A stretch of 64,000 nt of DNA from contig CANSRZ010000001.1 of the NCBI GenBank assembly GCA_947649575.1, forward strand, positions 184,734 to 248,733, given 5' to 3'. A program made the translations under genes and the position numbers. The notes beneath the pieces are model-generated. The model made no database searches. It worked only from the letters and a program-made list of their open reading frames with translations, and was not told where the DNA came from. This stretch comes from an uncultured Clostridia bacterium (GTDB taxonomy: Bacteria; Bacillota; Clostridia; Christensenellales; UBA1242). Below, piece after piece: positions 7,512-43,846 of the stretch (position 1 is its first letter; the number at the start of each line of letters is the position of its first letter).

Positions 7512-7546
7512 TTATAACTATTAGAAATTATTACATTTAGTTATAA
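7512..7546. promoter_or_regulatory. Inverted-repeat operator candidate upstream of XRE gene
   Basis: TTATAACTA - 17 bp - TAGTTATAA immediately before the ATG at 7556. Confidence 0.4.
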
Positions 7547-7555
7547 TATAAAATT

Positions 7556-7768: not shown

Positions 7769-7847
7769 TTCGTCCCTTGATTATATTTTACCATCACATT
7801 CGGTGATAAGTCAAGCAAAAAATCACAATTTGTAATAAAATTTTTAC

Positions 7848-8060: not shown

Positions 8061-8084
8061 AAAACAGCCGTTTGGCTGTTTTTA
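8060..8084. terminator. Intrinsic terminator between XRE gene and rplI
   Basis: AAAAACAGCCGTTTGGCTGTTTTTA. Confidence 0.75.
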
Positions 8085-8525: not shown

Positions 8526-8611
8526 AATTTTCTCCTTTTGATTATATTTTAAAGTTTTTTGTGTATTTTGTCAAACTTTTGGCAATAATTGAGGCAAAAA
8601 GGAGTGGATTA

Positions 8612-8923
8612 ATGGATATAAGATGCAGAAAAACGCGTTGCAAATTTAATAATTGTTATACATGCAAAGCAAAGGAAATTGGCGTTACAAAGAAAGTGAT
8701 TTGTGGAAGTTTTGAAAAAGACCCAGACAAGCCAGAGATTGACACTACAAAGCATTTGTTTGAAGAGCCACCAAAATATTCACCTCAACGCGACAGCAAA
8801 ACTGCAATAATCACCTGTGAAGCGCCTTGCCTTTTTAACAAATGTGGCAAATGTGTATCAAATGGAATCACAGTTAACGCAATCAAAGAGAAACCATATT
8901 GCGTAAGTTTCTTGGAGAAATAG
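8612..8923 (+). CDS. Tandem DUF1540-like Cys-rich protein
   Basis: Two repeats: CRKTRCKFNNCYTCKAKEIGV...C and CEAPCLFNKCGKCVSNGITV...C. RBS aaaaggagtgg before ATG at 8612. Confidence 0.75.
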   Translation: MDIRCRKTRCKFNNCYTCKAKEIGVTKKVICGSFEKDPDKPEIDTTKHLFEEPPKYSPQRDSKTAIITCEAPCLFNKCGKCVSNGITVNAIKEKPYCVSFLEK

Positions 8924-8981
8924 CAATCTAATATTACACAAATTATAAACAAATAAAATATATTTACTATATTCAATCAAG

Positions 8982-9016
8982 ACAAAAAAAAGTGTTCTTA
9001 TTTGAACACTTTTTTG
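8982..9016. terminator. Intrinsic terminator
   Basis: aaaaaaaAGTGTTCttatttGAACACTtttttt. Confidence 0.8.
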
Positions 9017-9032
9017 TATTTGGCATTGACAA

Positions 9033-9236
9033 TTACACGCCATATTTATTTTTAAATTTCTCAACGTTACCGCTGGCATCAACAACTTTCTTCTTTCCTG
9101 TGAAGAATGGGTGGCATTTGTTGCAAATATCAATGCTAAGTGTGTCACCTTTTGTTACACTTTTTGTTTTAAAAGTGTTGCCACATGCACAAGTTACAGT
9201 AACTTCATGATAATCTGGATGGATTTCCTTTTGCAT
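9033..9236 (-). CDS. rpmE: 50S ribosomal protein L31
   Basis: [27 protein letters not shown]...[13 protein letters not shown]; Cys motifs retained. Confidence 0.97.
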
Positions 9237-9263
9237 AATTTTTCCCCTTTTAATAAAATTTAA

Positions 9264-9560
9264 TTAATCTCCAACATATGGAAGAAGAGCAACATTTCTT
9301 GCGCGCTTAATAGCGGTAGTAAGTTCTCTTTGATGTCTAGCGCAAACACCAGTTTGACGTCTTGGCAAAATTTTGCCTCTTTCAGTCACATATTTTCTGA
9401 TTTTTGCAACATCTTTATAATCAATTTCCTTTTCGCCAGCAACGCAGAAAGCGCAAACTTTCTTTTTAGCAGGCTTACGGAATTTTTTAGGTGCAACAGG
9501 AGCAGATTTTTCTTCAGTTTTAACTGCTTCTTGTGCAACTTCTTTGATTTCTTCGCTCAT
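9264..9560 (-). CDS. rpsR: 30S ribosomal protein S18
   Basis: [53 protein letters not shown]. Confidence 0.97.
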
Positions 9561-9597
9561 AATATACTCCTTTTATAATTTTTTGTTTTAATGTTAC

Positions 9598-9690
9598 TTT
9601 TCTTGCAAGAAAAGTAACCAAAAGAAAACTAATTTGCGACACTCGTCAACACGTTGTCTTCGTGTCGCAAATGACCATTATTTTTGTATA
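9598..9690 (-). repeat. Same element family, copy in the ssb-rpsR interval
   Basis: Perfect palindrome GTTACTTTTCTTGCAAGAAAAGTAAC followed by caaaagaaaa and hairpin tTTGCGACACtcg...cGTGTCGCAAa. Confidence 0.7.
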
Positions 9691-9841
9691 TTCCTCTCAA
9701 CACTATTTTTTATACAAGCATTGACTGGATAACAATTTGCATTTTTATTAAGTTTACAAGACCGCCAAGCGTTAGGCTTGTTATGACCAAATAAACTATG
9801 CCTGTGCTGTCTGCCTTTAAGACAGAAAGTGCCTAAGGCAC

Positions 9842-10261
9842 CTAGAATGGCAAGCTGTCGTCGTCAATTGGCTCAAGTTCAGAAGTTTCTTTCTTGCCTG
9901 CTGGTTTAGAAACAGGTGCTGATGGCATATCGCCAGCATCAGTTGGCTTTGTGCCTAAGAATTCAACTTCATCAGCAACGATTTCAGTTGTGTAACGCTT
10001 TGTTCCGTCTTGTGCTTCATAACTAGAAGTTTGAAGACGACCAACAACGCCACATTTTGAACCCTTTCTTAAAAACTTAGCACAGTTTTCAGCGGCTGCA
10101 CGCCAAACAACAACGTTAAAGAAATCAGCTTCTCTTTCGCCGTCAGCGTTTTGAAATCTTCTTTGAACTGCAACTGAAAATCTGCAAACAGCAACTCCGC
10201 TGTTGGTTGTTGTAAGTTCTGGGTCACGGCTTAAATTGCCAGTAATAATAACTTTATTCAT
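9842..10261 (-). CDS. ssb: Single-stranded DNA-binding protein
   Basis: MNKVIITGNLSRDPELTTTNSGVAVCRFSVAVQRRF and acidic EPIDDDSLPF tail. Confidence 0.97.
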   Translation of the reverse strand: MNKVIITGNLSRDPELTTTNSGVAVCRFSVAVQRRFQNADGEREADFFNVVVWRAAAENCAKFLRKGSKCGVVGRLQTSSYEAQDGTKRYTTEIVADEVEFLGTKPTDAGDMPSAPVSKPAGKKETSELEPIDDDSLPF

Positions 10262-10352
10262 AATTTTTCTCCTTATAGAGCATTCTCAAAATGCCCTCTC
10301 TTTTGTTAAGATATGTTTAAATCTTCGTAAATACTTCTGCAAGAAATGTCAA

Positions 10353-10634
10353 TTATTTTCTTACGATTTGAACGCGAACTACTGCTTCAGTGATTGTCAT
10401 AAGTTTTTTAAGACCGTCAACTTCAGTGCCAGCAAGTTCAAAGTTCATGAGAACGTAAAAGCCTTCGTTTTTAAAGTTGATTGGGTAAGCAAGCTTTTTC
10501 ATGCCCCATTTATCAATTCCGTTGACAACTCCACCTTTGCTTTCAACGAAAGAAGAGAATTTTTTAATTAATTCTTCTCTTTTTTCTTCGGCTGTGTCAG
10601 CAGAAATGATATAAAGAACTTCATACTTATTCAT
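10353..10634 (-). CDS. rpsF: 30S ribosomal protein S6
   Basis: MNKYEVLYIISADTAEEKREELIKKF...KLAYPINFKNEGFYVLMNFE; start at internal Met after AGGAGG-like RBS. Confidence 0.96.
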   Translation of the reverse strand: MNKYEVLYIISADTAEEKREELIKKFSSFVESKGGVVNGIDKWGMKKLAYPINFKNEGFYVLMNFELAGTEVDGLKKLMTITEAVVRVQIVRK

Positions 10635-10887
10635 ATTTCTACCTCCTTTTTGGACTATTGGTTTTTCTACAAAACTAGAAAAACAAAGAAAGCAGTTTTT
10701 TACTGCTGAAATAATATTAACATAAAAATAAAGCAAAGTCAAGCATAAATTTAATAATATATATTTTAATTTTAATTAGTTCTCTTACAAAAATATTTAA
10801 AATGATACAAATTTGACGCAAAAAACTGATATTAACATAAATTTTTGCAATTTTGTCATGATTTGATAATTTTTAAGATAAATAAAA

Positions 10888-10925
10888 CAACACACCTTTA
10901 AAATTTCATTAGTGTGTTGTTTGTT
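10888..10925. terminator. Intrinsic terminator downstream of prfA
   Basis: AAACAACACAC...GTGTGTTGTTTG stem. Confidence 0.6.
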
Positions 10926-10955
10926 TAGTTTTTAAAAGAAAAGTTATATATTTTA

Positions 10956-12041
10956 TCAAGCATTGGCAAGTTTGTCAGCACGGTCTTTAAGTTCAAGCGC
11001 TTCAATAAACAAGTCAATATTGCCATTAAGGACATCTTCAATATTGTAAGATGACACATTGACGCGATGGTCAGTCACGCGACCTTGTGGATAGTTGTAA
11101 GTGCGAACTCGTTCACTACGGTCACCTGTGCCGACTTGGTCTTTGCGAGTTTGCTTATACTCGTTGTCTCGCTGAGTTTTATAAAGGTCATAAAGCTTTG
11201 CTCGCATTATGCTCATAGCACGCTCTCTGTTTTTGATTTGGCTGCGCTCGTCTTGGCAAGCAACAACAATTCCTGTTGGGATATGAGTTAAACGGATTGC
11301 ACTTTCTGTTTTGTTTACATGCTGACCGCCAGCGCCAGACGCACGATAAGTGTCTATTCTTAAATCGCTTTCATTTATTTCAACGTCAACGTCCTCAACT
11401 TCTGGAAGAACTGCCACTGTTGAAGTTGAAGTATGTATTCTTCCTTGTGACTCTGTTTCAGGAACGCGTTGAACGCGGTGAACTCCGCTTTCATATTTCA
11501 ATTTTCTGTAAGCACCTTTGCCCTTGACCATAAAAGTGATTTCTTTGATTCCGCCAAGCTCTGTTTCAGAAATATCCATAATTTCTGTTTTCCAGTGATT
11601 TTTATCAGCATAATATGTGTACATTCTTGTTAAAACTGAACAGAACAAGGCAGACTCTTCTCCGCCAGCAGCTGAACGGATTTCAATAATAACGTTGTTG
11701 TCATCATTTTCATCTTTAGGCAAAAGTAAAATTTTGCATTCTTCAACCTGCTCTTCAATTTTAACTTTTAATGAGCCAATTTCATCATAGAACATGTTGC
11801 GCATTTCATTGTCGGTTTCATTCTCATAATCTTTTTGACAACCCTCATAATCGTTTACAAGTGTTTGCAATTTATCATGAGCAAGAGCAAGTTCTTCCAA
11901 ATTAGCGCGCTCTTTGCAAAGCTTTTTGTATTCCTTGTTGTCAGAAATAATTTGAGGCTGCAAAATAAGCGAGGTTAGTTCGTCAAATCTCGCCTTTGCT
12001 TTGCCTGTTTTTTCCAAAATATCAGTTGCTAATTTTTCCAT
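10956..12041 (-). CDS. prfA: Peptide chain release factor 1
   Basis: RASGAGGQHVNKTESAIRLTHIPTGIVVACQDERSQ; GGQ motif. Confidence 0.98.
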   Translation of the reverse strand: MEKLATDILEKTGKAKARFDELTSLILQPQIISDNKEYKKLCKERANLEELALAHDKLQTLVNDYEGCQKDYENETDNEMRNMFYDEIGSLKVKIEEQVEECKILLLPKDENDDNNVIIEIRSAAGGEESALFCSVLTRMYTYYADKNHWKTEIMDISETELGGIKEITFMVKGKGAYRKLKYESGVHRVQRVPETESQGRIHTSTSTVAVLPEVEDVDVEINESDLRIDTYRASGAGGQHVNKTESAIRLTHIPTGIVVACQDERSQIKNRERAMSIMRAKLYDLYKTQRDNEYKQTRKDQVGTGDRSERVRTYNYPQGRVTDHRVNVSSYNIEDVLNGNIDLFIEALELKDRADKLANA

Positions 12042-13734
12042 AAATTATCCTTTCTTTCTTTTGATAGTCCTTAATAACTCGCGTGTCAATATAGCCAGCA
12101 TCTTTCATAAGCTTCCTTACAGCACTCGCTTGCCCATGGCCAAGCTCAAACATTAAACATCCGTTTTTGTTAAATCTTTTTACACTTCCAGCAATAATTG
12201 CTCTATAAAAATCAAGCCCGTCCTCACCTCCGTCAAGCGCAAGTTTAGGGTCATACTTTTTGACCTCGTCATCAAGTTTATCTATCTCTCCGCTTGCAAT
12301 ATATGGCGGATTTGATATGATTATATCATACTTTCTAAATTTTTTCAAGCCAGAAAATAAATTACTTTCAACAAAATCAACTTTAACTTTGTTCTTCTTG
12401 GCATTATTCTCCGCCACTTGTATAGCAGGCTTAGAAATATCCACTCCTGTGACTTTGACATCTGCATTTTTGGCAATAGCCACCGCGATTGCTCCACTGC
12501 CTGTACAAAGGTCGCAAACCTCTTTGTATTTGTTCTCTTTGATAAGTTTAAGTGCTTCGCTGACCAAAAGCTCGGTCTCCATTCTTGGCGACAAAACTTT
12601 TTTGTTAACATCAAATCGCATGCCATAAAATTCAACAAAGCCAAAAATACTTGATAAAGGTTCGCCTTTTGCACGACGCTGAGTTGCCAGCATAATCTCG
12701 CGATAATCTTTGTTTGATATTGAATGAACAAGTTTGATTTCTGCTCGATTTTTCCCAAGCACTGTTGCAATTATCCAATCAACATCGCTTTTTTCATATT
12801 TGTTAACAGCCGTCAGTTTAGTTTGCATTTCTGTTACAACAGCAGAAAAAGCTATCATGCCGTCCTCAACAGCTGATATGTCTTTGCTTGCTCCAATATC
12901 ACTTTCAAGTTGCGCCACGCGTGCAATTTCCTCCTGAGTTATATTTGGCTTCATGGCAATAAACCATGAGGTTATCAAACAAATGTTATTGACCCAAGCG
13001 CGTTCGCTTTTTTCAAGCAGATTTAAAACTTCATAACAAATTGCCATGCTTGCAAGCACAATAACAAGGTTGATAAGCAGGTTAGCCCACCAGTTAAAAT
13101 TAACTGCAATTAATGATACCATAAAAATGCTAAACAATAAAGTAAAAACTAAAAAATTTACATAATTTAATGGTTTATGCCAACTTTTTTTGATATTTTC
13201 GCTGTTTTTTGCGCTTTTTTGCATAATTTGCGAGGTTGCGCCATTAAATCTATAAAAATATTGCATGCTTGGAAGCAGGCGCAAAAGTAGTAAAATTAAA
13301 TAAAATAAGGCAACCTTAATTATCGCAATTATAAAAGCTCTCAGGCGTAAATTTGCAGAATTGCCCATTAAAACAAAAGAAAGTTTGGCAGGCAAAAAAC
13401 CTAGCAAGAAAAATGCTATCACAAAACTGCTTGCCACGCTGATTAATATAAAAAAATATCTGGCTGAAATATAAAATGTCTTGGAAATCTTTTTTGAAAA
13501 TTTGCTATCTTCACTGTTAGTTATTGAAAAGCTTGCGTCAAAACAAGCAAGCAAAGCAAAAAGTCCGCAAAAGAAATATTGAATTCCTCGCACAAAAATC
13601 CAATTATATTTGATTATTTTATTCTTGCTTTGGCGAGCCTTAACCTTTTTGCCACCGTCATCATCCACAACGGCAACAACATTTTTGCCTCCGCCAAAAC
13701 AACTAACCCCGTTCACGCATGGGAAATAATATTT
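12022..13734 (-). CDS. prmC: Fusion: N-terminal divergent DUF1385-like membrane domain + C-terminal PrmC (release factor glutamine methyltransferase)
   Basis: C-term VCDLCTGSGAIAVAIAKN...IIISNPPYIASGEI...LALDGGEDGLDFYRAI (PrmC NPPY). N-term MKYYFPCVNGVSCFGGGKNVVAVV...GIQYFFCGLFALLACFDAS and LLRLLPSMQYFYRFNGATSQI matches the DUF1385 layout. Overlaps prfA. Confidence 0.85.
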   Translation of the reverse strand, partial: KYYFPCVNGVSCFGGGKNVVAVVDDDGGKKVKARQSKNKIIKYNWIFVRGIQYFFCGLFALLACFDASFSITNSEDSKFSKKISKTFYISARYFFILISVASSFVIAFFLLGFLPAKLSFVLMGNSANLRLRAFIIAIIKVALFYLILLLLRLLPSMQYFYRFNGATSQIMQKSAKNSENIKKSWHKPLNYVNFLVFTLLFSIFMVSLIAVNFNWWANLLINLVIVLASMAICYEVLNLLEKSERAWVNNICLITSWFIAMKPNITQEEIARVAQLESDIGASKDISAVEDGMIAFSAVVTEMQTKLTAVNKYEKSDVDWIIATVLGKNRAEIKLVHSISNKDYREIMLATQRRAKGEPLSSIFGFVEFYGMRFDVNKKVLSPRMETELLVSEALKLIKENKYKEVCDLCTGSGAIAVAIAKNADVKVTGVDISKPAIQVAENNAKKNKVKVDFVESNLFSGLKKFRKYDIIISNPPYIASGEIDKLDDEVKKYDPKLALDGGEDGLDFYRAIIAGSVKRFNKNGCLMFELGHGQASAVRKLMKDAGYIDTRVIKDYQKKERIIYGKISN

Positions 13735-13865
13735 CATAACAAAATTATTGACTTTAATATAGAATTTAATCAACTTTTGTTTTAAAGAAAATTTGCAAAA
13801 GAAGACTTAACAAAACATTTACAAAATTTATTAAATATTTAATGATAAGAAGCTAAGAACCAAAA

Positions 13866-13951
13866 CAAGCCATTCTAACTTTTAAATTTAAAGTTAAAAC
13901 GGCTTGTTTTTATTTTTCTTTTGCTTACTTTTCTTGCAAGAAAAGTAACAC
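13866..13951 (+). repeat. Same element family, copy upstream of the DUF1385-PrmC gene and downstream of secA
   Basis: CAAGCCattctaac...GGCTTG hairpin then ttttcttttgcTTACTTTTCTTGCAAGAAAAGTAA. Confidence 0.7.
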
Positions 13952-13959
13952 ATAATAAT

Positions 13960-16689
13960 TTATTTTCCACAACAATTTTTGTATTTTTTGCCACTTCCAC
14001 ATGGACATGGGTCATTGCGTCCAATTTTATCAGAAGTGTTTACAACTGTTTGTTGCACTTGAGGTTTTTGTTTTTTCTTGGCTTGCTCTGCTTTCTCTTC
14101 TGGCGTAAGTTCTTTTCCAGTCATCACAACCGTAAAGTTTGGCTGCGCTGGCATTTGTTGAACAGGCTCAGGTCTGTCAATATGAGTATTTAACAAGAAA
14201 AGGCATGTCATGTTTCTGATTTTGTTGACCATATTTTCAAACATTTCTGAGCTGTCTTTTTTATAAGCCAAAACAGGGTCTTGATTGCCAAATCCTCTTG
14301 CAAAGATTTCATTTTTAAGAGTTTGCATATCTTCAATATGGCTCATCCAGTTAACGTCAACCATTTTAAGCAAAATAAATCTTTCAATTGCGCCAAAATC
14401 ATAGCCATACTCGGTTGCTTCTTTCATGCGGTCAGTATATTTTTTTACAACCATATCTGTCAATTTATCACATACTTCAGAAACATCACAATCTTCAACA
14501 AATTCCTCTGTCACAACATTTGAGCCTTTTTCAAAGAAGCCCTTTTCTAGGTCTTGATTGATTTTTGTCAAATCCCACTCAAAATATGGCTTGTCGTCAT
14601 TCAAATCCTCATAACAAATCTTTGAAATTTGTTCTGGAAGCATGCTCATAATCTGGTCATGAACAGGTTCACCGTCAAGCACCTTATTACGCTCTGCATA
14701 AATGATTTCACGCTGTTTGTTTAAAACATCGTCAAAGCGAAGCACTGTTTTACGCATGCCAAAATTTTGAAGTTCAATCTTTTTTTGAGCGCCCTCAATT
14801 CTGCGAGAAAGCACTTTAAGCTGAATTGGCGTTGAATCATCCAAACGTAAGAAAGAAGCCATTCTTTTAAACCAATCGCCACCGAAACGACGAATAAGGT
14901 CATCCTCAAAAGACAGGAAGAACACGCTTGAACCTGGGTCACCTTGACGCCCCGCACGACCTCGAAGCTGATTGTCAATTCGTCTGCTTTCATGACGTTC
15001 TGTTCCAATTATATGAAGTCCGCCAAGTGCTTTAACTTCTTCTTTCTCTTTGTCAGTTTCCTCTTTAAAAGAGTTGTAAAGGCTTGTAAATTTCTCTCTT
15101 GCGTCATTAAGTTTTTTGTCATCAACAGTGTTGAACGCTGTGGCATAAGAAATCTCTTCTTCGCTAAATCCAAGGTCTGTCATCTTCTTTTTAGCCATGA
15201 ATTCAGGATTGCCGCCTAAGAGAATATCAGTTCCACGACCTGCCATGTTTGTTGCAATAGTTATCGCTCCGCGTCTGCCCGCTTGCGCTACAATAGCACT
15301 TTCTTGCTCGTGATTTTTAGCGTTCAAAACAATATGTTTTATACCCGCCTCTTTTAAGGCTTTTGAAAGAAGTTCACTTTTGTCAATGTTGATTGTGCCC
15401 ACAAGCACTGGCTGACCTTTTTCTTTGCAACCTCTGATTTCTTCAATAATTGCCTTAATCTTGCCTTGCTCTGTCACATAGACAATGTCTGGCTCGTCAA
15501 TGCGTAGTTTTGTTCTGTTTGTTGGAATAGTTACAACGTCAAGATTATAAATCGACCTAAATTCGCCTTCTTCTGTTTTTGCAGTACCTGTCATGCCTGA
15601 AAGCTTTTTATACAATCTGAAAAAGTTCTGGAATGTGATTGTTGCAAGGGTTTGATTTTCATCCTTAATTTGCACGCCCTCTTTGGCTTCAATTGCCTGA
15701 TGAAGTCCTGCATTAAAGCGTCTGCCAGGAGTTAAACGACCAGTAAACTCGTCAACAATAACAACCTCGCCGTCTTTGACGATATAGTTTTCATCGCGAT
15801 GCATTGTGAAATTTGCTTTAAGAGCGTTATTGATATAGTGATTAAGTTCAAGATTTTCGATATCAGAAAGACTGTCAACTTTAAAATATCTTTCAGCCTT
15901 AGTTATTCCGCTGTCAGTCAAGAAAAGTTGCTTTGTTTTTTCATCAATATCAACATCATCCTCTTTTTTAAGAGTTTTGACAAATTTTTGCGCAGAAATA
16001 TATCCGTCGCTTGATTTGTTGCCTCTGCCTGAAATGATAAGCGGAGTTCTTGCCTCATCAATCAAGATTGAGTCAACTTCGTCCACAATTGCAAAGTTAA
16101 GCCCGCGTTGAACACGCATATTTCTGTTAACAACCATGTTGTCACGAAGATAGTCAAAGCCAAGTTCGTTGTTTGTGCAATACGTGATATCACAAGCATA
16201 AGCCTGTTTCTTTTTATTTTCATCCATGCTGTTTAAAGTTACGCCAACAGAAAGTCCAAGAAATCTGAAAACTTTGCCCATCCATTCAGCGTCACGTTTT
16301 GCCAAGTATTCATTGACTGTCACAATATGAACGCCTTTGCCAGAGATTGCATTAAGATAAGCAGGAAGTGTTGCCACCAAAGTTTTACCCTCACCAGTAG
16401 CCATCTCTGCAATACGCCCTTGATGAAGAGCAATTCCGCCAATAATTTGTACAAAAAAGTGACGCATATTAAGCACTCTGCTTGACGCTTCACGGCAAAC
16501 GGCAAAAGCCTCTGGCAATAGGTCATTCAAAGTTGTGCCAGCATTATATCTATCCTTAAACTCTTGAGTGCAAGCAGTCAATTGTTCATTTGTGTAATCC
16601 TTATATTTTTCTTCAAGTGCAATCACCTGATTTGCAATCTTTGTAAGTTTTTTAATCTGAGTTTTATTCTCACTAACAAAAAGTCCCAT
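13960..16689 (-). CDS. secA: Preprotein translocase subunit SecA
   Basis: MATGEGKTLVATLPAYLNA, VDEVDSILIDEARTPLIISG, C-terminal SEC-C motif DPCPCGSGKKYKNCCGK. Confidence 0.98.
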   Translation of the reverse strand: MGLFVSENKTQIKKLTKIANQVIALEEKYKDYTNEQLTACTQEFKDRYNAGTTLNDLLPEAFAVCREASSRVLNMRHFFVQIIGGIALHQGRIAEMATGEGKTLVATLPAYLNAISGKGVHIVTVNEYLAKRDAEWMGKVFRFLGLSVGVTLNSMDENKKKQAYACDITYCTNNELGFDYLRDNMVVNRNMRVQRGLNFAIVDEVDSILIDEARTPLIISGRGNKSSDGYISAQKFVKTLKKEDDVDIDEKTKQLFLTDSGITKAERYFKVDSLSDIENLELNHYINNALKANFTMHRDENYIVKDGEVVIVDEFTGRLTPGRRFNAGLHQAIEAKEGVQIKDENQTLATITFQNFFRLYKKLSGMTGTAKTEEGEFRSIYNLDVVTIPTNRTKLRIDEPDIVYVTEQGKIKAIIEEIRGCKEKGQPVLVGTINIDKSELLSKALKEAGIKHIVLNAKNHEQESAIVAQAGRRGAITIATNMAGRGTDILLGGNPEFMAKKKMTDLGFSEEEISYATAFNTVDDKKLNDAREKFTSLYNSFKEETDKEKEEVKALGGLHIIGTERHESRRIDNQLRGRAGRQGDPGSSVFFLSFEDDLIRRFGGDWFKRMASFLRLDDSTPIQLKVLSRRIEGAQKKIELQNFGMRKTVLRFDDVLNKQREIIYAERNKVLDGEPVHDQIMSMLPEQISKICYEDLNDDKPYFEWDLTKINQDLEKGFFEKGSNVVTEEFVEDCDVSEVCDKLTDMVVKKYTDRMKEATEYGYDFGAIERFILLKMVDVNWMSHIEDMQTLKNEIFARGFGNQDPVLAYKKDSSEMFENMVNKIRNMTCLFLLNTHIDRPEPVQQMPAQPNFTVVMTGKELTPEEKAEQAKKKQKPQVQQTVVNTSDKIGRNDPCPCGSGKKYKNCCGK

Positions 16690-16827
16690 TTTTACTCCTA
16701 TAACAAATGTAATAACCTATTTTAGCAAAAAAAAAGCATTTTGTAAATATTTTTATAGCCATTTTTGAAAAAGAATGTTCCAAACTGACAAATCATGCCC
16801 AAAACCGCCAATTTTCTTATCAATCTA

Positions 16828-16856
16828 TTGACTTTCAAGCGTTTAGATGATATAAT
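16828..16856 (+). promoter_or_regulatory. Sigma-A type promoter for the 848-aa ORF
   Basis: TTGACT - 17 bp - TATAAT. Confidence 0.75.
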
Positions 16857-16883
16857 AAAATTATATAATTTTTAGGAGTAAAT

Positions 16884-19430
16884 ATGGGATTTTTTCAAAA
16901 TTTTATCAATTTTTTTCATAGGGGCAAAGGAATTGTTAAAACTACTAATCAAGCATATAAAGCTGTTAATTTACAAGATGCAAGACGCATATCTGAACAA
17001 AGAGCAAAGCGTGCAAGTTTAAAAGTTTTTAACCAAATTGTTGAAAATGCAACAACTGCTGACGATGTTTTGGAGGCTTATGCTGATTTAGTTCTTGACG
17101 CAAGTGGTGCTGGATTTTTCTCAGAATCTGAAATTAAAAAAGAGGCTACTGGAATTGTTAAAGTTCAACTTAAAGCACAAGCGCTTTTCCAAAAAGAACA
17201 AGACCGTGCAAGTCAAGTTCAAGCACGCGGTGCAAAAAACATGTTAGAAGCTTCTGACGGAATTGACCTCGATGGTGACGAAATTGAATCTGGCACAGAG
17301 ATTATTGCAAACCCTGCAAGAATGTTTACTCCTGTCAGCAGGCAAGAAAAAGCAGAACTGATTGAAGCAAAACGCCAAAAACTTGAAAGCAGAATGATTG
17401 CCACAAAACGCGCTCATTTTGTTATGTCAACAATTGATAAATTTATTGAAAAAATCACTGTAAAATCTAAAACAAAAATGAACAGGCAAGAAAAAGAACT
17501 TTTCAACAAAAAAATTCAAGCGTTTGTTGAAAAAATCAAAATTCAACTTGCTGAAGACAGAGTGTCTCACCCTGATATCACAATTGACGGACAAGGTGGC
17601 GAGATTTCAACAATGCTTTACAACCTTGTCCAAGCAAGGGATGTCTCTGACAATCATTCTGTTGGAAGCAAATATGTAGGCTTAAAAGCTAAACTTACAG
17701 ATAAAGCAGACGTTGCCATTATGGAAAAGCTTATTGACGCAAGACCACAAGTTTTTATTGAAAAACTTGATGAGATTATTGCAGAAGAAAAAGTAGCGCT
17801 TAATGAATGCAAACTTTCTGAGCTTGTTGATGAAATCGGACTTTACAACTCAAACGTAGAAAATATCAAGGCTGAAATCAATGAACGCAAAGAGGATATT
17901 GAAGCGACCAAACAAGCAAAGGCAATTGAGAAAAAAGCAGAAGACAAAGTTAAGTTAACTCAAGAAGCAATGGACGCAGTAGATAAAGCAGATGTAACAA
18001 CTTTTATAGACACAAACATGCCCGCTTTCTATTTCCGTGACGGCGTTTGGAATGGCATAACTTTGACAAACGAGGCTGACTCAAAAGGCAAACGTGATAA
18101 AAAATATAGAAAACAACTTGCTCAAAGCAAACTTGTTATCACAAAGGCAGTGCAAGAGGCTATGGAGTTTACAGAAGAAGAAAAACTTGCTCTTGCTCAA
18201 AAATTAGTTGCTGCTTACAAAAAAGGCAAAAATTTGGACGAAACGATTTTGCAAGAAGTGCCAACACTTAACTATCAAGACCTTTGCAATCGACTTATTC
18301 AAAGAAAAGATTTTAATGGTGAGCCTGAATATTATTATATCAATCCATTAACAGAAACTGTTGCAGGCAAAGGCAAAAAAGCAAAAGCCATAACAAATGT
18401 TATCACAGAGGGCAAGCTTATCACGGCAAATCAATTTAAACTTATGGAAGAATATTATTCTTCTCTTCCAGAGAGTCAAGACAAGCCTTTTGGTGAGCTT
18501 GATGATGTGGCTATGCATAAACTTTATGACGCTGTCAGCAATGAAGCAAGCACTTACCCTGCTGGGAAAAATAATCATAAAAAATATGCAAGTTTTTCAA
18601 GCGATGAAGCCATAATTGCCTATGCGCGTCAGGCTATTGAAAAAAATGATATGGCAACAGAAGTTCGCAAACTTGACTTGCGTGCCTGTGCAAAAGATTT
18701 TATCGCAAGTGAACTTGAAAATGCTACAAATCAACATACTGAGGCTGTTCAAATTCATAACAAGGCTCAGCAAATGCTTGCCCAAACAATTGATGCTATA
18801 AATGTTGAAATAACTGCTCTTAACAACCTTGGGAACACCATTAATGAGCATAAGCAATTTATTTTAAACAGAACTGAGAAAGAAAACGAAGATTTAGGAA
18901 GCGACACAAAAAGAAAATTAGCCACAGTCATCAAGCCTTTAAACGAAGTTGCTGAGTTTAATGCAGACCCTACAACTGTTGAAGAGCAAGATTTAGACAA
19001 TGTGCCAATCTCAATGACAGAGAAAGAGCTTCAGGCTATCTCAGATTTTGCAATCACAGACAGAAACATTGAAGTTGATGTGACAGGTCGTCCAAGCAAA
19101 GCAGGAATCAACACTATAAAACGTCATGCAACAACAACTTTCCCAGCGAAAGCAATTGCAGTTGCAGACAATATGACGGATGTTATCAAAGATGTTCTCG
19201 CTTTGATTGAAACTGACACAAAATCTATTTCTACAAAAGCAACAAAAACTGCAAGGGTAAAACAGACATCAGTAAAAGCAAAAACTAATTCTTCTGATAA
19301 CAAAAAATCTCAAAAACCTGCTGAAACAACAAAGCCAAAAACATCCAAAACTAATAAAGCTTCAACCAAAAAGTCAGAAAGACCTACAAATTCAGCAACA
19401 ACACCGATTGAAGAAGAGCCTCAAGCATAA
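16884..19430 (+). CDS. Large hypothetical coiled-coil-rich protein (848 aa), basic Lys/Thr/Ser-rich C-terminus
   Basis: Continuous ORF with RBS aggag; charged helical composition; KPAETTKPKTSKTNKASTKKSERPT tail. No family recognised. Confidence 0.85.
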   Translation: MGFFQNFINFFHRGKGIVKTTNQAYKAVNLQDARRISEQRAKRASLKVFNQIVENATTADDVLEAYADLVLDASGAGFFSESEIKKEATGIVKVQLKAQALFQKEQDRASQVQARGAKNMLEASDGIDLDGDEIESGTEIIANPARMFTPVSRQEKAELIEAKRQKLESRMIATKRAHFVMSTIDKFIEKITVKSKTKMNRQEKELFNKKIQAFVEKIKIQLAEDRVSHPDITIDGQGGEISTMLYNLVQARDVSDNHSVGSKYVGLKAKLTDKADVAIMEKLIDARPQVFIEKLDEIIAEEKVALNECKLSELVDEIGLYNSNVENIKAEINERKEDIEATKQAKAIEKKAEDKVKLTQEAMDAVDKADVTTFIDTNMPAFYFRDGVWNGITLTNEADSKGKRDKKYRKQLAQSKLVITKAVQEAMEFTEEEKLALAQKLVAAYKKGKNLDETILQEVPTLNYQDLCNRLIQRKDFNGEPEYYYINPLTETVAGKGKKAKAITNVITEGKLITANQFKLMEEYYSSLPESQDKPFGELDDVAMHKLYDAVSNEASTYPAGKNNHKKYASFSSDEAIIAYARQAIEKNDMATEVRKLDLRACAKDFIASELENATNQHTEAVQIHNKAQQMLAQTIDAINVEITALNNLGNTINEHKQFILNRTEKENEDLGSDTKRKLATVIKPLNEVAEFNADPTTVEEQDLDNVPISMTEKELQAISDFAITDRNIEVDVTGRPSKAGINTIKRHATTTFPAKAIAVADNMTDVIKDVLALIETDTKSISTKATKTARVKQTSVKAKTNSSDNKKSQKPAETTKPKTSKTNKASTKKSERPTNSATTPIEEEPQA

Positions 19431-19440
19431 AAAACACAAA

Positions 19441-19468
19441 TCACTCTTGCTTTAAGAGTGATTTTTTA
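19441..19468 (+). terminator. Intrinsic terminator
   Basis: TCACTCTTgctttAAGAGTGAttttttattt. Confidence 0.8.
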
Positions 19469-19545
19469 TTTTCTCTAAGCAAATTCCGCCACCAATTTAA
19501 TGCAAAAAAAATATCAAATTCAGCCAGGTTTTCTTTTCTCTATCC

Positions 19546-19575
19546 TTGACAATAATATGATTTATATGTTATATT
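19546..19575 (+). promoter_or_regulatory. Sigma-A type promoter for the 2192-aa ORF
   Basis: TTGACA, about 18 bp, TATATT; followed by cggagg RBS. Confidence 0.65.
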
Positions 19576-19607
19576 ATATATAATTTAGAAATATATCGGA
19601 GGAAATT

Positions 19608-22600
19608 ATGGCAGAATTCATAGATACAATCAAAACCTTTTCAGATCCTGAAACAGGTGCAAAATATTTTCTTTGTAAAAGTAGCACAGGAGCTTCAATA
19701 ATATTGATGCAAGATAGTGCTGGCAGTTTTTATACCTCCCTTACTGATACAGCAGGAGCAAGGCACTGTAAAAAAATTTTGGGCACTGGAGCAGACGCTA
19801 TAACCAAACGCGGACTCTCTTCAGACGACTATCAGCTTAAGTTAGATAACAACTCAGCATTCCCAATTGAAACAAGTAGATATGGTGACCAACTTGCCCA
19901 AGATATCAAAAATATATTAGACGGAAAAGAAACCATTACTCCGCAAGAAGAAAGCCAAACTATTAAAAAAGAATCTCCGATTTTTCAAAGTCTACATCAG
20001 CAAGCAGTCAAAGTTGCAAAAGAAACTGACTACGTTTCTCCGACCGCTGAAATAGAAACTTTAAAAAAACAACTTGATGCTCAACGTCAAGAAGCACAAG
20101 AATATCATAACGCAATTAATAAAGCTACTGAGGAAGTCAGAAAAACTGAAGATGAAATCCTTGGTCATAATGCAAAATCATCTCTTAGAGATGTGTTAAA
20201 CAAAAAGAACACTGCACCTACTCTTGATGACGAACTTGCAAAAGACGGTTTAACAGCCGACCCTATTGAAGAAGATCCTACAATTGCAGAACTTAATCGT
20301 CAAATTGCTGAAATGGAAGCCCAAGCTGACAAGCGTGCAAAAGAAGCGGCAGACTTATCACAGATTAATGCAACTGAAAAAGCAGAACATGAAAGTTTTG
20401 AAATAGGTCAACAAGAATTGCAAGATGAGCTTGACGAATTCAATCGAGATATTTTGGGACTTGAACATGAAGAAAACGACGCTTCACCTTTTGAAGATAT
20501 AACAGCGCCTGAGACACAAGTGCAACAAACTGAAAGTATTTCAGAAACTCCTAAAAATTCATCAATCAGCCCAAGCGAATTTGCACATGATATTTCTCGT
20601 GGCATGATGAGAGATAATGCACGAAGCACTGAATCAATAAATACTGCTGACGCAATTAATAAATTGAAAGGAACAGATTATTCAAAATTATCCTTAGCTG
20701 AAAAACTTCAACAAAATGTAGAGGACGCTTCGGCTAATTTAAAATATGATGAAGCAAGCCCTTACACTTTTGAAATTAACGACAAATATTCTGGTGGCAA
20801 AACCAAGATAACTACCCTTGTAGGCAAAGATTCAACTCCTGCACAAAATTTTTCTTTTTATGATGAAAAAGAAAGGATGACTTACTTTGATTTGCAGCGC
20901 GAAGATGCATATAGTACAAAAGGCATAAGCGCTTTTGGCAAAGTTCATGAAATTATTATGCGCGACACCAATGGCGACTGCTATTATAGTGTAACAAAAA
21001 CGGCAAGAGATCGTAAAACTGGAGAAGTTAAACGCCAACAAAGCGAAATCAGAAAAATTGAAAAAGTTAGCACAGTCAAAAAAGCGGATAATTTTGGCAA
21101 TGAAAACGAATATTATGAAATCGCTTTAAGTGATGGCTCAGTTATTTCTAAAAGATTAACTGACGAAAACAAGCAAACAATAAAAGACATAAACGCTCTT
21201 GTAAGCGGAAAGAGAATAAAAGCAACACAAGTTCGCAGTGAATCTGCTTTCTGGGCGCATGCATCTGATGTTTCTGCAACACCTACTCAAATAAAAGAGG
21301 CTGAGTCAAGCAGAAAATTTAGAGAAAAACAACAACCAAACTCTGGACTTAAAGCAGAAACTCCTGAGTATAAACCTGAAGAATATACTTTTACTCCTGA
21401 ACAATTTGCTCAGGCAAGACAAGCTCAAGAAGCAAGAATTCAAGCAGAACTTGCTGAGAAAGCTAAAGAAGAAGAGCTTGCAAGACAAGTGCTTGCTGAA
21501 GTGCAAGAAGCCGAAGAACGCATTGTTGCCAAGGCAGCGGCTGGAAAAAAGACAGCAGCGGAAACTCCACAGCCTCAACCTGCTAAACCTAAGCAGCCTC
21601 AACCTGCTAAGCCAAGCGCTAAAAAGAAAGCAGAGCGTGCTGTTACTCGCAAAAAAGTTGCTGAGAGAACTGCTCCAAAAATTCAAGGCATTCAAAGTGC
21701 TTTAAAACTTAAAACCGCTGCAGGCAAAACTTTAAGACCATCAAAAAACTTCCCTAGACTATATCAAACAATGACTTATGTTGGCCCAGACAGAGATAGA
21801 AGCAGGCTTGCTCAATTTACTCGCACTGTTGACGGGCAATTGGAAAATGTTGCAACACTCAGAAAAGACAGACTTGACATTTCTGCAAGTCAATTTACTG
21901 AAGAGGATTTCAAGCAACTTCAAAGCATGGGTCTTGTTGCACAGGATGCTGTTTATGATCCAAATTCAACAATATCCCTTGCAGTTGGAGGCAAAAACGG
22001 CATTTCTGCTTTCAATAATGAAAACGAAACAGAAATCACTGTTCAAAATCAAGATGGAGCAATCTATTCTTGCACTCTTGACCCGCTTGGAATAAGACTT
22101 TCTGGCTATAATGCCAATGGCAATGCTTGCGTGATTGATAAACGTGCAAAACTTGAAAACATTTCTCAAAATGACATCCTCAATGTTGCGGTTTCATCTG
22201 AATTCTTAAAAGCTATGCTTGATCCTAATAATGAAACCATTCCAACACCAAAAAATATAGGCAATATCCCTCCTCAAATGATTGGAGTGTGCCTTGCTGA
22301 ACAAACGCCAAATGCGGACGGGTCTATTTCGTTCCCAACAGGCAAAAATGTTAATGCAAAATTCAAAATGATTGCCGTGCCTACTGGTGAGGAAATTGAC
22401 GGCGTTAAACAATATTATTATCTTGCCAAGAACACTGAGCGCGGAACTACTTTTGTTTATGACGGCAACGGCTTTAAACCTTTTGATAGATACAACTTTA
22501 TTGAAGCCGCTGATGGTCATGAAACGCCATATATTGGACTGCATCAAGGTCAAACTTCAAAAAGTGTTGGCTCTGCACTTGTAACCCGTGGCTTAAAAAT

Positions 22601-35665: not shown

Positions 35666-35693
35666 CAAAAAAGTGACAATTGTCACTTTTTTT
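35666..35693. terminator. Intrinsic terminator
   Basis: aaaaAAGTGACAATTGTCACTTttttt. Confidence 0.8.
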
Positions 35694-38304
35694 AATTTTT
35701 AAAACCTCTTTCTGTAAGCCTTGCTATAATCTCATCGCTAGTCGCAGAAGACGCCTCTGCCAAAAAGAATAAACTCCTCAGCATTGGCAAATTATCATTC
35801 ATTCCGTCAACTAAACCAAATGCAGAAAAATCCGCCCCGACGAACTCTTTACGAGAGTTCACTCTTGAAAAACTGTTGTTAACCGTCACTGCGTTACTTC
35901 CGCCATAGAACATTGCAATGTCCATATTGCTTGCACCATTAAATGAACAGTTTTCAATTATTGGAACAGCCGTTGTGGATGAATTTTGTCCTAGTATAGC
36001 GCCAACAGATGTCGCAGTTTTATCCATTATATAAATCTGTCCGCTTGCCATACAGTTTTTGATTGTGCCATTCCCTATAGAAGCAGCAATGCCACCGCAA
36101 ACTGTGTCCGCAGTAAGCACGCCACGCGAAATGCAGTTTTCAATCATTTGACCACCACTGCCCGCAATTCCGCCAACTTTGATACTCACTCGATTAGTTA
36201 TTGGTGTACTAATTACCAAATCTCTGCCTGTTAAATTTCCTTCATTGATGCAATTTTTGATAATGCTTTTGCTTGAACAAGTTCCCACAATGCCACCAAT
36301 GTTACCCATACCTATGCCACTTGGGCTACCAGTCAAAGATCCATAATTTATACAGTTTGTCACTTCGCCCGTACTTTCTGACGCAAAACTCAGACTTCCG
36401 ACAATGCCTCCAACAGCCACTAATCCTGAACTTGTCAGCGATCCCGCAAACGTACAATCAGAAATTTTGCAATTGCCTGAAGCCATGCCAATAAGTCCAC
36501 CTAGCATACCATAACTACCATTCCCCAATATATTTGCTTGAACATGGCAGTTTTCAATGTTGCTTTCAGTGATACTACAAACAACCATACCACCAAAGAG
36601 CATGCTTGAGTTTCCACTTTGCGTAAACATATATCCGTCAACAATATTGATATTTTTGATAGTTGCATTTTTGACATTTAAAAACAAACCTAGATAAAAC
36701 ATTGCTGCAGCCTCACTTGTTGGATCAACAGCAAGCCTTAAACCCGATATGTTTTTGCTACCGCCGTCATAAGTTCCACTAAAAGCATTAGCACTTGTGC
36801 CAATCCCATACCAATCAAAGTCGCCAAGGTTCAAATTTGCTGTCTGTTTAAAATATTTACCTGCATAATCTTTCCCAAGCGTGCACTCATATGCCAACCC
36901 CGCAAGTTTCTCTTCGCTGTCGATTATGTATGGATGCTCCTTAGACCCGTCACCTTTGCCGTCAGTTTCATAAGACGTGTCCGCCAAATCAGTCCAACGA
37001 TCAGCCTCCCATCTCAAAATAGGATAACCGTCGTTTTTAACTTTGCTTAAAAGCCAAACATTTTCAAAGTCCCAAGGATATTTATTGTTCCATAAAGCTT
37101 CGTCTTGATACCAACTTTTATCTTTTGCATGCTCAACAATGTTTTCATCCCGTACACCCTTGCCTTCGCCGTCGTCAGCAGTGTACTCACCACCATAGTA
37201 GCAAGCGTCAATAATGGCAGGAAACTGAACGGTGGCAGCAATACTTAAAGCATTGCCTTTTGTAGTTTTTACTAAACCAGTATTAAAACAATTATAAAAA
37301 GGCACTCCCATTACACTAGATCCAAAAATAGTAACGCCAACTGCATTTGAACAAATGCCGCCAGCAGTATTATAAGCAGTTATGTTACTCAAATTAAAAC
37401 AATTTTTTATAACACTACCATTATTGGCAACATAAACTATTCCTCCGTAATAGCCATTACCATCATCTAGCCCAACATATTCTCCAGCCTTACCAAATGT
37501 CCCTTTGTTATAACAATTAACTATAGAAGCATTCATTATGAAACCAGCAATGCCAGCTAATCCGCTCCAACCACTGATCGAAGCCTTATTATAACAACTT
37601 TCGATGTTTACAAACAATGCATAACCTACAACTCCAGCAATATAACTATTACCTTTTATTTCAGAATTTTCTATACCTATATTTTTAATCTCGGCATAAT
37701 CTTGTACATCACCTACAACATAACCAAAAAGACCTTTATTATTAGCAAAATTTCCCTCTTCAATAGTATCTGTAGCCTCATACCCGCCTGCTTTTGTAAA
37801 AATACCAGTTACTTTGTGACCTCCCCCGTCATATTTACCAGAAAAATATCTGTTTATCTCTGTGCTATCTTTCCCATACTGGCTTCCTATTGGCATCCAC
37901 CAATAAGATGATAAATCTATATCAACTGTTTGCTTAAAATATATATGAGTGTAATAATAAGTAGTAGTTGTCGAACCTCTTGTGACAACATTTTTCTCAC
38001 TTTCGTTGGCTACATTATCATAAAAAACACGATACGAAAGTCCTGCAAGCTCTTGCGCAGAAGTAATTAGATATGGTTCACTTTCAGTACCTTTACCTTG
38101 CCAATCGATATCATATCCCGTTCCACTATCTCCCCAATATTTAGTAATATCATTTGGCTGAGTTGCGCTTTGAGTTGTTTCAGGTTGTTCTGACTGTGAT
38201 TTTGCAGAAAAATCAACCAAGCCCAAAACCAGCCCCAATGTTAGCGCAACAACTGCACAGGCTGAGATAACTGAGATTATAATATTCCTTTTCTTTTTAT
38301 TCAT
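35692..38304 (-). CDS. GLUG-repeat surface protein (paralog 1) with N-terminal membrane anchor/signal
   Basis: N-term MNKKKRNIIISVISACAVVALTLGLVLGLV; GTESEPYLITSAQELAGLSY; many GGIVG...I.NC.N.G repeats. Confidence 0.88.
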   Translation of the reverse strand: MNKKKRNIIISVISACAVVALTLGLVLGLVDFSAKSQSEQPETTQSATQPNDITKYWGDSGTGYDIDWQGKGTESEPYLITSAQELAGLSYRVFYDNVANESEKNVVTRGSTTTTYYYTHIYFKQTVDIDLSSYWWMPIGSQYGKDSTEINRYFSGKYDGGGHKVTGIFTKAGGYEATDTIEEGNFANNKGLFGYVVGDVQDYAEIKNIGIENSEIKGNSYIAGVVGYALFVNIESCYNKASISGWSGLAGIAGFIMNASIVNCYNKGTFGKAGEYVGLDDGNGYYGGIVYVANNGSVIKNCFNLSNITAYNTAGGICSNAVGVTIFGSSVMGVPFYNCFNTGLVKTTKGNALSIAATVQFPAIIDACYYGGEYTADDGEGKGVRDENIVEHAKDKSWYQDEALWNNKYPWDFENVWLLSKVKNDGYPILRWEADRWTDLADTSYETDGKGDGSKEHPYIIDSEEKLAGLAYECTLGKDYAGKYFKQTANLNLGDFDWYGIGTSANAFSGTYDGGSKNISGLRLAVDPTSEAAAMFYLGLFLNVKNATIKNINIVDGYMFTQSGNSSMLFGGMVVCSITESNIENCHVQANILGNGSYGMLGGLIGMASGNCKISDCTFAGSLTSSGLVAVGGIVGSLSFASESTGEVTNCINYGSLTGSPSGIGMGNIGGIVGTCSSKSIIKNCINEGNLTGRDLVISTPITNRVSIKVGGIAGSGGQMIENCISRGVLTADTVCGGIAASIGNGTIKNCMASGQIYIMDKTATSVGAILGQNSSTTAVPIIENCSFNGASNMDIAMFYGGSNAVTVNNSFSRVNSRKEFVGADFSAFGLVDGMNDNLPMLRSLFFLAEASSATSDEIIARLTERGFKN

Positions 38305-38462: not shown

Positions 38463-38490
38463 ATGATAGCAAATCCCCCCCCCGTGTCAA
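38463..38490 (-). promoter_or_regulatory. Candidate phase-variable promoter with poly-G spacer upstream of GLUG paralog 1
   Basis: Minus strand TTGACA - 16 bp (C-G9-ATTTGC) - TATCAT. Confidence 0.6.
38475..38483. repeat. C9/G9 homopolymer
   Basis: aaatCCCCCCCCCgtg on plus strand. Confidence 0.95.
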
Positions 38491-38534
38491 CTTTTTATGA
38501 AAGAAAGTTCAAACTTTTTTTCGTTTCCACTTGA

Positions 38535-38543
38535 GGGGGGGGG
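38535..38543. repeat. G9 homopolymer, inverted relative to 38475..38483
   Basis: cttgaGGGGGGGGGata on plus strand. Confidence 0.95.
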
Positions 38544-38623
38544 ATAAAAAGTGCCATTTAAACAACATTATTCTTCTTATCAGGATGATGAGGCATGGGT
38601 ACACAGCAAGCACTTGATGTTGA

Positions 38624-41120: not shown

Positions 41121-43783
41121 TTAATGACTTTGTTTAAATCCTTTACTGTCAAGCCATTCTTGAGTCACCTCTTCGCCGAATTCAGCTTGCCAGAACAAAT
41201 CTTTCAATATAGGTAAATTATTATTCATTCCCTCAACTATTTTAAACGTACTTAAATCACTGTCGCTGTAATAGCCTTGATTATTAATGTAAAAATAACA
41301 ACCCCCAATCATACTCCCTGCAGTTTGTATACCAGTAAATTTTACTATTTTAACATTACTGTTGCCAACAAAATTAGAGTATCTAACATAATGTCCTGTA
41401 AGTTTTCCTACAATTGCACCTACATTAGCACCTACGCCGCCATTAAACACAATCTGTCCAGTGCCCATGCAATAAGAAATAAATGAATTAAGAGCTTCAC
41501 CAATAAGTCCACCGACATTGTCTGAGCCTACAACAACTCCGTCAAAAATGCACTTTGTTAAAATTGTATCAGATTCCAAATATCCAGCCAAGCCGCCAAC
41601 TTTATCAACGCCTTTCACATTGGAATATACATAGCTATTTTCAATTTTATTTTGTCCAGCCCCACGTCCCACTAAACCGCCAACTTCAATATTTGTTGCC
41701 TCAACATTGCCAGTGGAATAGGAATTTTTTATAGTGCTACCCTCAGCAAGTCCCACGATTCCGCCAATGTAATTCTTGCCTTTAATATTACCTTTGTTTA
41801 TACAGTTATCAATCACGTTGTCAGTAGTTGTTCCGTAAGTATATCCAACAATTCCGCCAAGTTTTTCTGAATTTGTACCCGACAACCCCTCAACGCTACC
41901 GCTAAAACTGCTGTTCAAAACCTCTGCGCGCCAACTATATCCCCCAAGACCTCCAACATTAGTTTTTCCCTTAACAACTGCGTTGCTATGGCAATTTTCG
42001 ATTACAGAGTTAGTATCAAAAAGCCCAACAATAGTACCCACATTGCTACCGCCAATTATTGTGGAATTCTTTATAATAACATTTTTTACTGTTGCAGATT
42101 CAATTGTTCCAAATAAACCAACGTAACTAGCCTCAGATTGGTTTATGTACAACCCGCTGATTACAAAATTTCCGCCGTCATATATATCAGCAGCAAAAGC
42201 AGTACCATCGCCGTTCCCCGTCCCAATCGGTGTCCACTCGTAACCGCCTAAATCAATGTTTGCCGTCTGCTTAAAACAATCGCCCTCAAAAGTATTATCG
42301 CCACTATTAACTTGCTGAGCAATGCCCGCAAGTTTATAAGGAGTGTCTATAATATAAGGGTCATTTTCCGATCCCGTCCCATCAAAATTAGTATCCCCCA
42401 ACTCAATCCAATTAGTTGGGGGTGGCAATTGCCATTTAAAAATAGGATACCCATCATTAAGATCAGACTTTATTGCCCATATATTTTCAAAATCCCAAGG
42501 ATATTCTGCGTTCCACAATAATTCACCATTATCTTTTGCCTCTGGTGCAAAAAAATCTGGGCTTTTTGCGCCGAGCTCTAAATATTCTATTCTCTTCGTT
42601 GTATCAGTGCCAGAGCCAACACCAGCTGATAATGTACAACTTCCGCCATAATAAAGATTATTTAACACAGCCTCTGAATATTGAGAACCACCAGTAATAG
42701 CTCCTTTATAATTCGCTGTGCCAGCTACGAATCCAGCATTATAGCAATTACTTAAACAACTATATGAATTCATATAACCTGCCAGCCCGCCAACATAATT
42801 GCCTGATCCTGCTATCCAGCCAGTATTATAACAATTACTGATTATACTTCTTGCATACACGATACCTGCAATACCACCAACATAACCACTTTCACCAGCC
42901 GTCACAGTACCAGTATTATAGCAATTCCCCAAGATATAACCTTGAGAGCTCCCAGTCAAAGTTCGAATTTCACCCAACACCGCTCCTACAATACCTCCAA
43001 CATATTGTTTCCCATATAATTTACTTGTATTATAACAATTTGAAATTAAAACTCCTCCACAATAGCCAACAATACCTCCAACCCAATTTGTACCTTCTAT
43101 ATTTGAATTCACAACACCAAGATTTTTTATGCTAGTTTTTAAATAATTAGATGAATTAACTACAACATAACCAAATAATCCCTTATTATTATCAGCATAT
43201 GTAGACGTGTCAGCCTTGGTAAATACACCTGAAACAGTATGTCCATCTCCGTCATATGTTCCAGAGAAATATTTGCCAGATACTGCATTATTAGGATTAT
43301 AATCGCCAATCGGTTGCCACCAATAAGCTGACACATCAATATCACAAGTTTGTTTAAAATATTTGTTTAAGAAATAATATGGCCCTCTACCATCTCTATC
43401 CCCTGAACTATTTGTAAAATACTCTTGCTTTTGATTTGCATATACAGCATAACTCAGTCCTGCAAGTTCTGCCGCACTAGAAATAAGCCACGGGTCTGCT
43501 TCTGTTCCACTGCCTGACCATTCCATGTCTAACACTGATTTGTCAGATCTATAAGCTTCATGCCAGTACATGTCATTTGTTGGCTCGGTGACGCCTTGGG
43601 TTTGCTCGGGTTGTGGATTATTTTCTACATTTCGCGAAGCGAAATGGTGGCTAAAAAAGTACCCCCCCCCGCGATTATTCCTATTGTGGATATCATCGCA
43701 AGAAGAAGTACTATTGGGTTTTTTATTGTATTTTTTCGTTTATTTTGTCCCGTCGATGTGGATAACTTTTGTTTGTTTTTCAT
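41121..43783 (-). CDS. GLUG-repeat surface protein (paralog 2), phase-variable; out of frame at G9 in this assembly
   Basis: Body 41121-43571 in frame. Upstream ATG at 43783 with gaggtg RBS and promoter encodes MKNKQKLSTSTGQNKRKNTIKNPIVLLLAMISTIGIIAGGG, then G9. One extra G gives YFFSHHFASRNVENNPQPEQTQGVTEPTNDMYWHEAYRSD. Confidence 0.88.
43662..43670. repeat. C9/G9 homopolymer inside the GLUG paralog 2 coding region
   Basis: gtaCCCCCCCCCgcg on plus strand; G9 on coding strand. Confidence 0.97.
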
Positions 43784-43816
43784 AAGTTTTTCACCTCGTT
43801 TTTTTATTTCTCTTTT

Positions 43817-43846
43817 ATTATATATCTTTTTCTTTTACTTAGTCAA
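43817..43846 (-). promoter_or_regulatory. Promoter for GLUG paralog 2
   Basis: Minus strand TTGACT - 18 bp - TATAAT upstream of ATG 43783. Confidence 0.65.

Follow-up and report, generated by a model that had tools for sequence, protein, structure and literature searches.

Here we report that the genome of an uncultured Clostridia bacterium very probably contains a genome-wide simple-sequence contingency system, in which a G9 tract near the start of one GLUG surface-protein gene would be a single switch among many. The gene lies in the window, by which we mean the whole stretch of 64,000 nucleotides that was analysed, and the case for the system was built on where the tracts lie, on their frames, spacer lengths and copy number, on recurrence across species, on the ON and OFF alleles found in relatives, and on length differences between tracts with identical flanks. 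The features of the gene, from promoter to body, are as follows.

43817 to 43846, minus strand: sigma70-type promoter TTGACT-18-TATAAT, without a G tract
43792 to 43797, minus strand: ribosome-binding site GAGGTG
43625 to 43783, minus strand: N-terminal reading frame of 52 codons, with ATG, hydrophobic signal or anchor, G9 and stop codon TAG
43662 to 43670, minus strand: G9 tract, proposed translational switch, OFF in the assembled state
41121 to 43571, minus strand: intact ORF of the GLUG beta-solenoid body, 816 aa from an internal ATG (ORF reading, Pfam and predicted structure)

The first-pass annotation had placed promoter, ribosome-binding site, ATG, G9 and TAG on the minus strand, and direct reading found each of them there, with TTGACT at 43846-43841, an 18-nt spacer, TATAAT at 43822-43817, the ATG at 43783 and the TAG at 43627-43625. 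Its distance of 212 nt between the two ATG codons also held, and its description of a TAG shortly after G9 with an intact GLUG body in another frame is correct to the base. The N-terminal frame translates as MKNKQ...GIIAGGGTFLATISLREM and then stops. The body frame translates as YFFSHHFASRNVENNPQPEQ... and runs for 846 codons after the tract, to 41121; upstream it is open through the tract to about 43739, with no common start codon before 43571. Because the body frame is +2 (that is, -1) relative to the ATG frame, G10 or G7 would join the ATG to the body, as had been proposed.

The body matches the Pfam family Glug (PF07581) with E=1e-15 and 57.4 bits, against a curated cut-off of 20.5. A model predicted from two window proteins is mostly beta-solenoid (mean pLDDT 64.6, with 80-90 in the second repeat block), and its best match in the PDB is 3n6z (E=4.5e-6). 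At the N-terminus a hydrophobic segment follows a basic start and no sorting motif was seen by eye; the surface location of GLUG proteins, and their exposure on the cell, are putative.

Poly-G phase variation is the best explanation of this gene, a reading well supported by comparison with other tracts and other genomes, and the window G9 would by extension be expected to switch. The ON/OFF switch first suggested for the locus is supported by the comparative data, but that picture was too small, as most members of the family seem to be switched through a promoter spacer and not through the reading frame. The genome (1.09 Mb in 9 contigs) contains 24 distinct runs of at least nine G (or C) where a first-order Markov model predicts 0.22, so the runs are not due to chance; exact G8 runs number just one. 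Thirteen of the 24 lie between -35 and -10 in near-identical promoters of the type TTGACAC-G(9-11)-...TTTGCTA, for which a reversed-pattern control gave no match in the same genome, and five lie in mirror poly-C promoters (TTGACA-N-C9-N-TATAAT), which places 18 tracts in promoters. Three more occupy the first codons of three GLUG genes (window 43662, L023:5023 and L024:5020), bringing those at a switch position, either promoter spacer or first codons, to 21; the remaining three are at window 38535, at C3:149286 and at a contig end (C7:1-9). The paralogue L023 and the third gene, L024, repeat the design of the window gene. All three coding tracts share one OFF phase; a fixed frameshift mechanism would produce the same pattern, which is a point against phase variation.

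When a protein search of the genome for GLUG genes was combined with the tract map, exactly one tract was found in every close paralogue with an assembled 5' end (16 of 16). Thirteen have a poly-G promoter and no coding tract, and three have a coding tract and an ordinary promoter; the 16 leave aside three fragments that lack a 5' end (at the end of contig C1 and the starts of C4 and C9). Only one GLUG-like gene whose 5' end is assembled has no poly-G tract: a distant, giant ORF of 6563 aa on contig C2 (G000:C2, about 370-19794, minus strand, L192), whose GLUG-type similarity is weak. With one switch per paralogue, a population should be a mosaic of cells with differing subsets of surface proteins.

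The window also holds an example of the promoter form, upstream of a second GLUG gene.

38463 to 38490, minus strand: poly-G spacer promoter TTGACA-C-G9-ATTTGC-TATCAT with a 16-nt spacer, one of 13 copies in the genome; candidate transcriptional form of the switch
38475 to 38483, minus strand: G9 tract inside the spacer of that promoter
35692 to 38304, minus strand: second GLUG surface protein, 870 aa, with a hydrophobic N-terminus, under the poly-G promoter
38535 to 38543, plus strand: extra G9 tract (C9 on the gene strand), 60 nt upstream of the cassette tract

The second protein is 41% identical to the first, and no clear promoter is seen around the extra tract. The first-pass annotation had not linked these two further G9 tracts of the window to the first. 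Written for n Gs, the promoter of the cassette reads TTGACAC-Gn-ATTTGCTATACT, and downstream of each of the 13 copies comes an ORF whose N-terminus is hydrophobic. Ahead of most poly-G promoters lies an inverted copy of the promoter's own -35 region (CCCGTGTCAACT, 27 nt, AGTTGACACGGG), as compared at window 38475-38560, L010, L012, L013, L015, L017-L021, L025 and L028, and a conserved upstream block, CCTGCGAAGTCTGGCTTTGTT, also stands before most of them, giving the impression that one promoter block has spread through the genome by copying. A mobile phage element was considered as the carrier of the cassette and rejected, the pattern having no match in viral contigs. An exact-pattern scan of named genomes returned one other carrier, the uncultured Clostridia MAG contig CALWGA010000050.1; this MAG probably belongs to the same genus, and the contig is probably C50 of congener G057, which has the same promoter near a contig end. 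The poly-C promoters sit before a family-2 glycosyltransferase, a protein that combines an alpha-CTD with sigma region 4, and small proteins of which some contain hydrophobic segments. One of them, at the start of contig C1 (L009:139-900 of G000), has downstream a gene for a protein with RNA polymerase alpha-CTD and sigma-70 region 4 domains and, if phase-variable, could switch a regulator.

The same designs recur in related species. Runs of G9 are present in 93 of 112 congeneric genomes, with up to 47 overlapping matches in about 1 Mb; in congener G079, unlike the others, all 37 matches are on one assembly strand. A search of these 112 genomes (species) for TTGACA-N(0-10)-G7-N(0-10)-TANNAT found poly-G spacer promoters in 57 and the poly-C form in 58, hundreds of spacer-form promoters across the genus, with the reversed pattern giving zero matches in every genome; the strict form is missing from about half of the congeners, a further point against phase variation. 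Promoter flanks are species-specific (AAAAAGGC-G8 in G013, TTCAATC-G9 in G011, C-G9-ATTTGC in the window genome), and the genes driven in congeners encode BspA-type leucine-rich repeats, DUF6273, List_Bact repeats and a GDSL-lipase lipoprotein with a collagen-like stretch. Beyond the genus, the promoter form occurs in 32 of 151 genomes of an order sample, several with many copies, and in 10 of 219 other genomes of a phylum sample, each with a single copy; multi-copy use is thus present in other families of the order and was not seen elsewhere in the phylum sample.

Tract length varies where the surrounding promoter does not. Promoters whose flanks are identical letter for letter within one genome form 15 sets, and in 11 of these the number of Gs is not uniform; tracts range from G7 to G12 in congener assemblies and from G11 to G14 in a sister genus of the order sample. 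Among the matches listed, the modal poly-G promoter spacer is 16 nt (82 of 146, against 22 at 17 nt), 16 nt is likewise the mode for poly-C promoters (58 of 150), and ordinary TTGACA..TATAAT promoters of the genus mostly have 17 (98 of 150, against 16 at 16 nt). Fisher tests against the ordinary promoters give p of about 4e-23 for poly-G and 2e-18 for poly-C among these matches, values that are overstated since the matches are the first listed and were not drawn at random, and since copies from the same species are not independent observations. Species whose tracts are G8 have a flank longer by one nucleotide, which keeps the spacer at 16 nt. With most spacers a nucleotide below 17, the majority of members are probably dim or OFF in the assembled state.

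These lengths bear on two other accounts of the tracts. Spacer G tracts could be an invariant promoter element that serves a dedicated sigma factor or a DNA-binding protein, as the strict conservation of species-specific flanks among many copies and the preference for 16 nt might suggest. We consider this very unlikely, given that length differs among copies with identical flanks and that the same lineages put poly-G into codons and glycosyltransferase genes, where a promoter role is impossible. The tracts could also be G10 everywhere and under-called by the assembly, so that the genes are stable and ON: all three coding tracts are one short, most promoter spacers are 16 instead of 17, and one tract (C7:1-9) is at a contig end. 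Yet this assembly does contain G10 and G11 calls at other tracts, and congener assemblies show both ON and OFF states and lengths of G7-G12, with up to G14 in the sister genus. Length-dependent miscalling would not, moreover, lead the G8 species to compensate with a longer flank, and such an error is in our judgement very improbable.

Tract lengths were also compared within coding sequences, and homologous surface genes of congeners have poly-G at the same place in ON, +1 and +2 states. Among 20 curated 5'-coding tracts (two ambiguous ones, L113 and L155, being omitted), 6 are in frame (ON), 9 need +2 and 5 need +1, a distribution compatible with 1:1:1 (chi-square p=0.52) and as random drift predicts. 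Downstream of all but one of the counted tracts the frame is long, staying open for 156 to 865 codons before a stop or the limit of the stretch read (61 in L092), and the OFF genes are therefore not generally decayed. In one pair of glycosyltransferase orthologues the tract is G9 and in frame (ON) in L096, and G10 and out of frame (OFF) in L057, a difference between species; their relative in the window genome, L022, has a poly-C promoter instead. This family-2 glycosyltransferase switch is hence seen in three species, as promoter poly-C (L022:5028-6363), coding G10 (L057:1501) and coding G9 (L096:4759). Other congener genes with in-frame poly-G resemble, by eye, UDP-galactopyranose mutase and LTA synthase/sulfatase (L050:1501, L051:1501, L114:2501).

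The window gene itself offers a second way of reaching the body frame, just after the tract.

43628 to 43658, minus strand: heptamer T TTT TTA (43658-43652), a 5-nt gap and a perfect 8-bp hairpin, CATTTCGC-TTC-GCGAAATG (43646-43628)

By programmed -1 ribosomal frameshifting, ribosomes would slip on U UUU UUA past the G9, aided by the hairpin, so that the G9 allele would not be OFF but would yield a certain amount of full-length protein. The frame of the heptamer suits such a slip, a -1 shift is what is needed, the hairpin is perfect (-8.8 kcal/mol), and the element is shared with the paralogue L023 at 88-95% nucleotide identity, with flanks mostly at about 42-80% per 40-column bin. Perfect hairpins of at least 6 bp follow 5 of 19 surface-gene coding tracts against a 2% background, in a post hoc count in which paralogues are not independent. 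Small perfect hairpins were observed after many coding tracts (window 43628-43646, L024:5030, L091, L092, L100, L103), their sequences differing by family. The combination of a slippery heptamer in frame and a downstream structure is, however, confined to the window gene and L023: neither the third coding gene, L024, nor L156 has such a heptamer. Among relatives some would require +1, some -1 and some no shift at all, so the shift direction is not conserved, and hairpins occur as well behind tracts that are in frame (L100, L093) or +1 (L091). When all tract classes were tested together, structure was not enriched, which, set beside the positive narrower post hoc test, leaves the hairpin as a general partner of tracts at the level of a lead. 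Since homologues differ in shift direction and L024 is without the heptamer, and with promoter poly-G left unexplained, we regard frameshifting, which would in any case concern the window gene only, as unlikely; phase variation with a basal frameshift leak is a combination that we keep in consideration.

Slippage of RNA polymerase, which would add or drop Gs at the G9 and give mixed mRNAs including an in-frame one, is suited to a 9-nt homopolymer in the first codons, and one shift would serve all three coding tracts. The promoter-spacer tracts are untranscribed, though, and this mechanism explains neither them nor the differences in DNA length among otherwise identical promoters nor the ON alleles of relatives; we judge it very unlikely.

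We therefore return to slippage in the DNA. In the phase-variation model, slipped-strand mispairing during replication would add Gs to poly-G tracts or remove them. For the window gene and two others, with the tract in the first GLUG codons, its length would set the reading frame: the window G9 would join the start codon to an early stop (OFF), and a tract one longer or two shorter would join it to the body (ON). For the 13 other genes the tract within the -35/-10 spacer would set promoter strength, assembled spacers usually being 16 nt, one below the 17-nt optimum of ordinary promoters of the genus; an effect of tract length on transcription is suggested by this spacer arithmetic. Slippage would presumably be ongoing within a single population, and the benefit may be escape from phage, host antibody or competitors. 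Loss of mismatch repair was considered as a driver and rejected, MutS being present in the window genome and in all 72 near-complete congeners. The tracts must accordingly be mutable with mismatch repair intact, as Neisseria tracts are, and raised slippage through loss of repair gives the model no support.

A broader proposal, which we hold tentatively and at slightly under even confidence, is that of lineage-wide bet-hedging in uncultured small-genome Clostridia. Nearly every member of the dominant surface family would have exactly one poly-G switch, in the promoter spacer or the first codons, with a default one base below the optimum, so that most would be dim or off and cells would activate a random few, and species would have rebuilt the design around GLUG, BspA-type LRR or DUF6273/List_Bact proteins with their own flanks. 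If true, a species-rich group of such Clostridia has its surface proteins and glycosyltransferases under a dense poly-G phasome, a single consensus genome makes the genes concerned look truncated or weakly expressed when they need not be, and ON/OFF states are measurable directly from existing metagenome reads. The offset of 16 against 17 nt is a concrete, testable statement on the default state. To our knowledge, most described cases of phase variation by slippage come from host-adapted Proteobacteria, Campylobacter, Treponema and mycoplasmas, and the known switches among gut Clostridia are invertible promoters; our literature search returned no relevant paper on poly-G phase variation in Clostridia or Christensenellales or with GLUG.

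Several known systems resemble parts of this one. The Vlp lipoproteins of Mycoplasma hyorhinis have poly-A spacers between -35 and -10, and like the GLUG proteins they are surface paralogues of one family in which every gene has a homopolymer switch of its own at that place; unlike the poly-A of the single vlp gene cluster, the tracts described here are poly-G, are scattered over the chromosome and in some members would act in the coding sequence. Invertible promoters of Clostridioides difficile and Bacteroides likewise make surface and regulatory genes of anaerobic gut bacteria phase-variable, by site-specific recombination (PMC11868660), whereas repeat slippage is proposed here and no evidence of inversion was seen. 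For porA of Neisseria meningitidis and tp0126 of Treponema pallidum, expression depends on a poly-G that lies between -35 and -10 and is best at a total spacing of 17 (PMC7864442); in-vivo tprL tracts are 7-11 long, mostly 9 (PMC7864442), in agreement with the G9 peak seen here. The resemblance to porA and tp0126 extends to poly-G in a sigma70 spacer, surface proteins and lengths around 8-11 (PMC7864442), and control of output by total spacing may be shared as well; where those systems involve one or few genes, the present one has 13 near-identical promoters in a 1.1-Mb Clostridia genome, comparable promoter sets in congeners, and mirror poly-C versions. In Campylobacter, poly-G of at least 8 mediates switching, and 53% of tracts are G9 and 26% G10 (PMC6321876). 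That phasome is similar in its many poly-G tracts, its sharp peak at G9 and its surface and glycosyltransferase genes (PMC6321876), and its in-frame ON/OFF switching (PMC6321876) is the mode we would propose for the window gene. It differs in having 77% of tracts within ORFs (PMC6321876), against 18 of 24 in promoters in the window genome, and the tracts described here belong to an unrelated phylum, to unrelated gene families and to a genome in which the mismatch-repair protein MutS is present.
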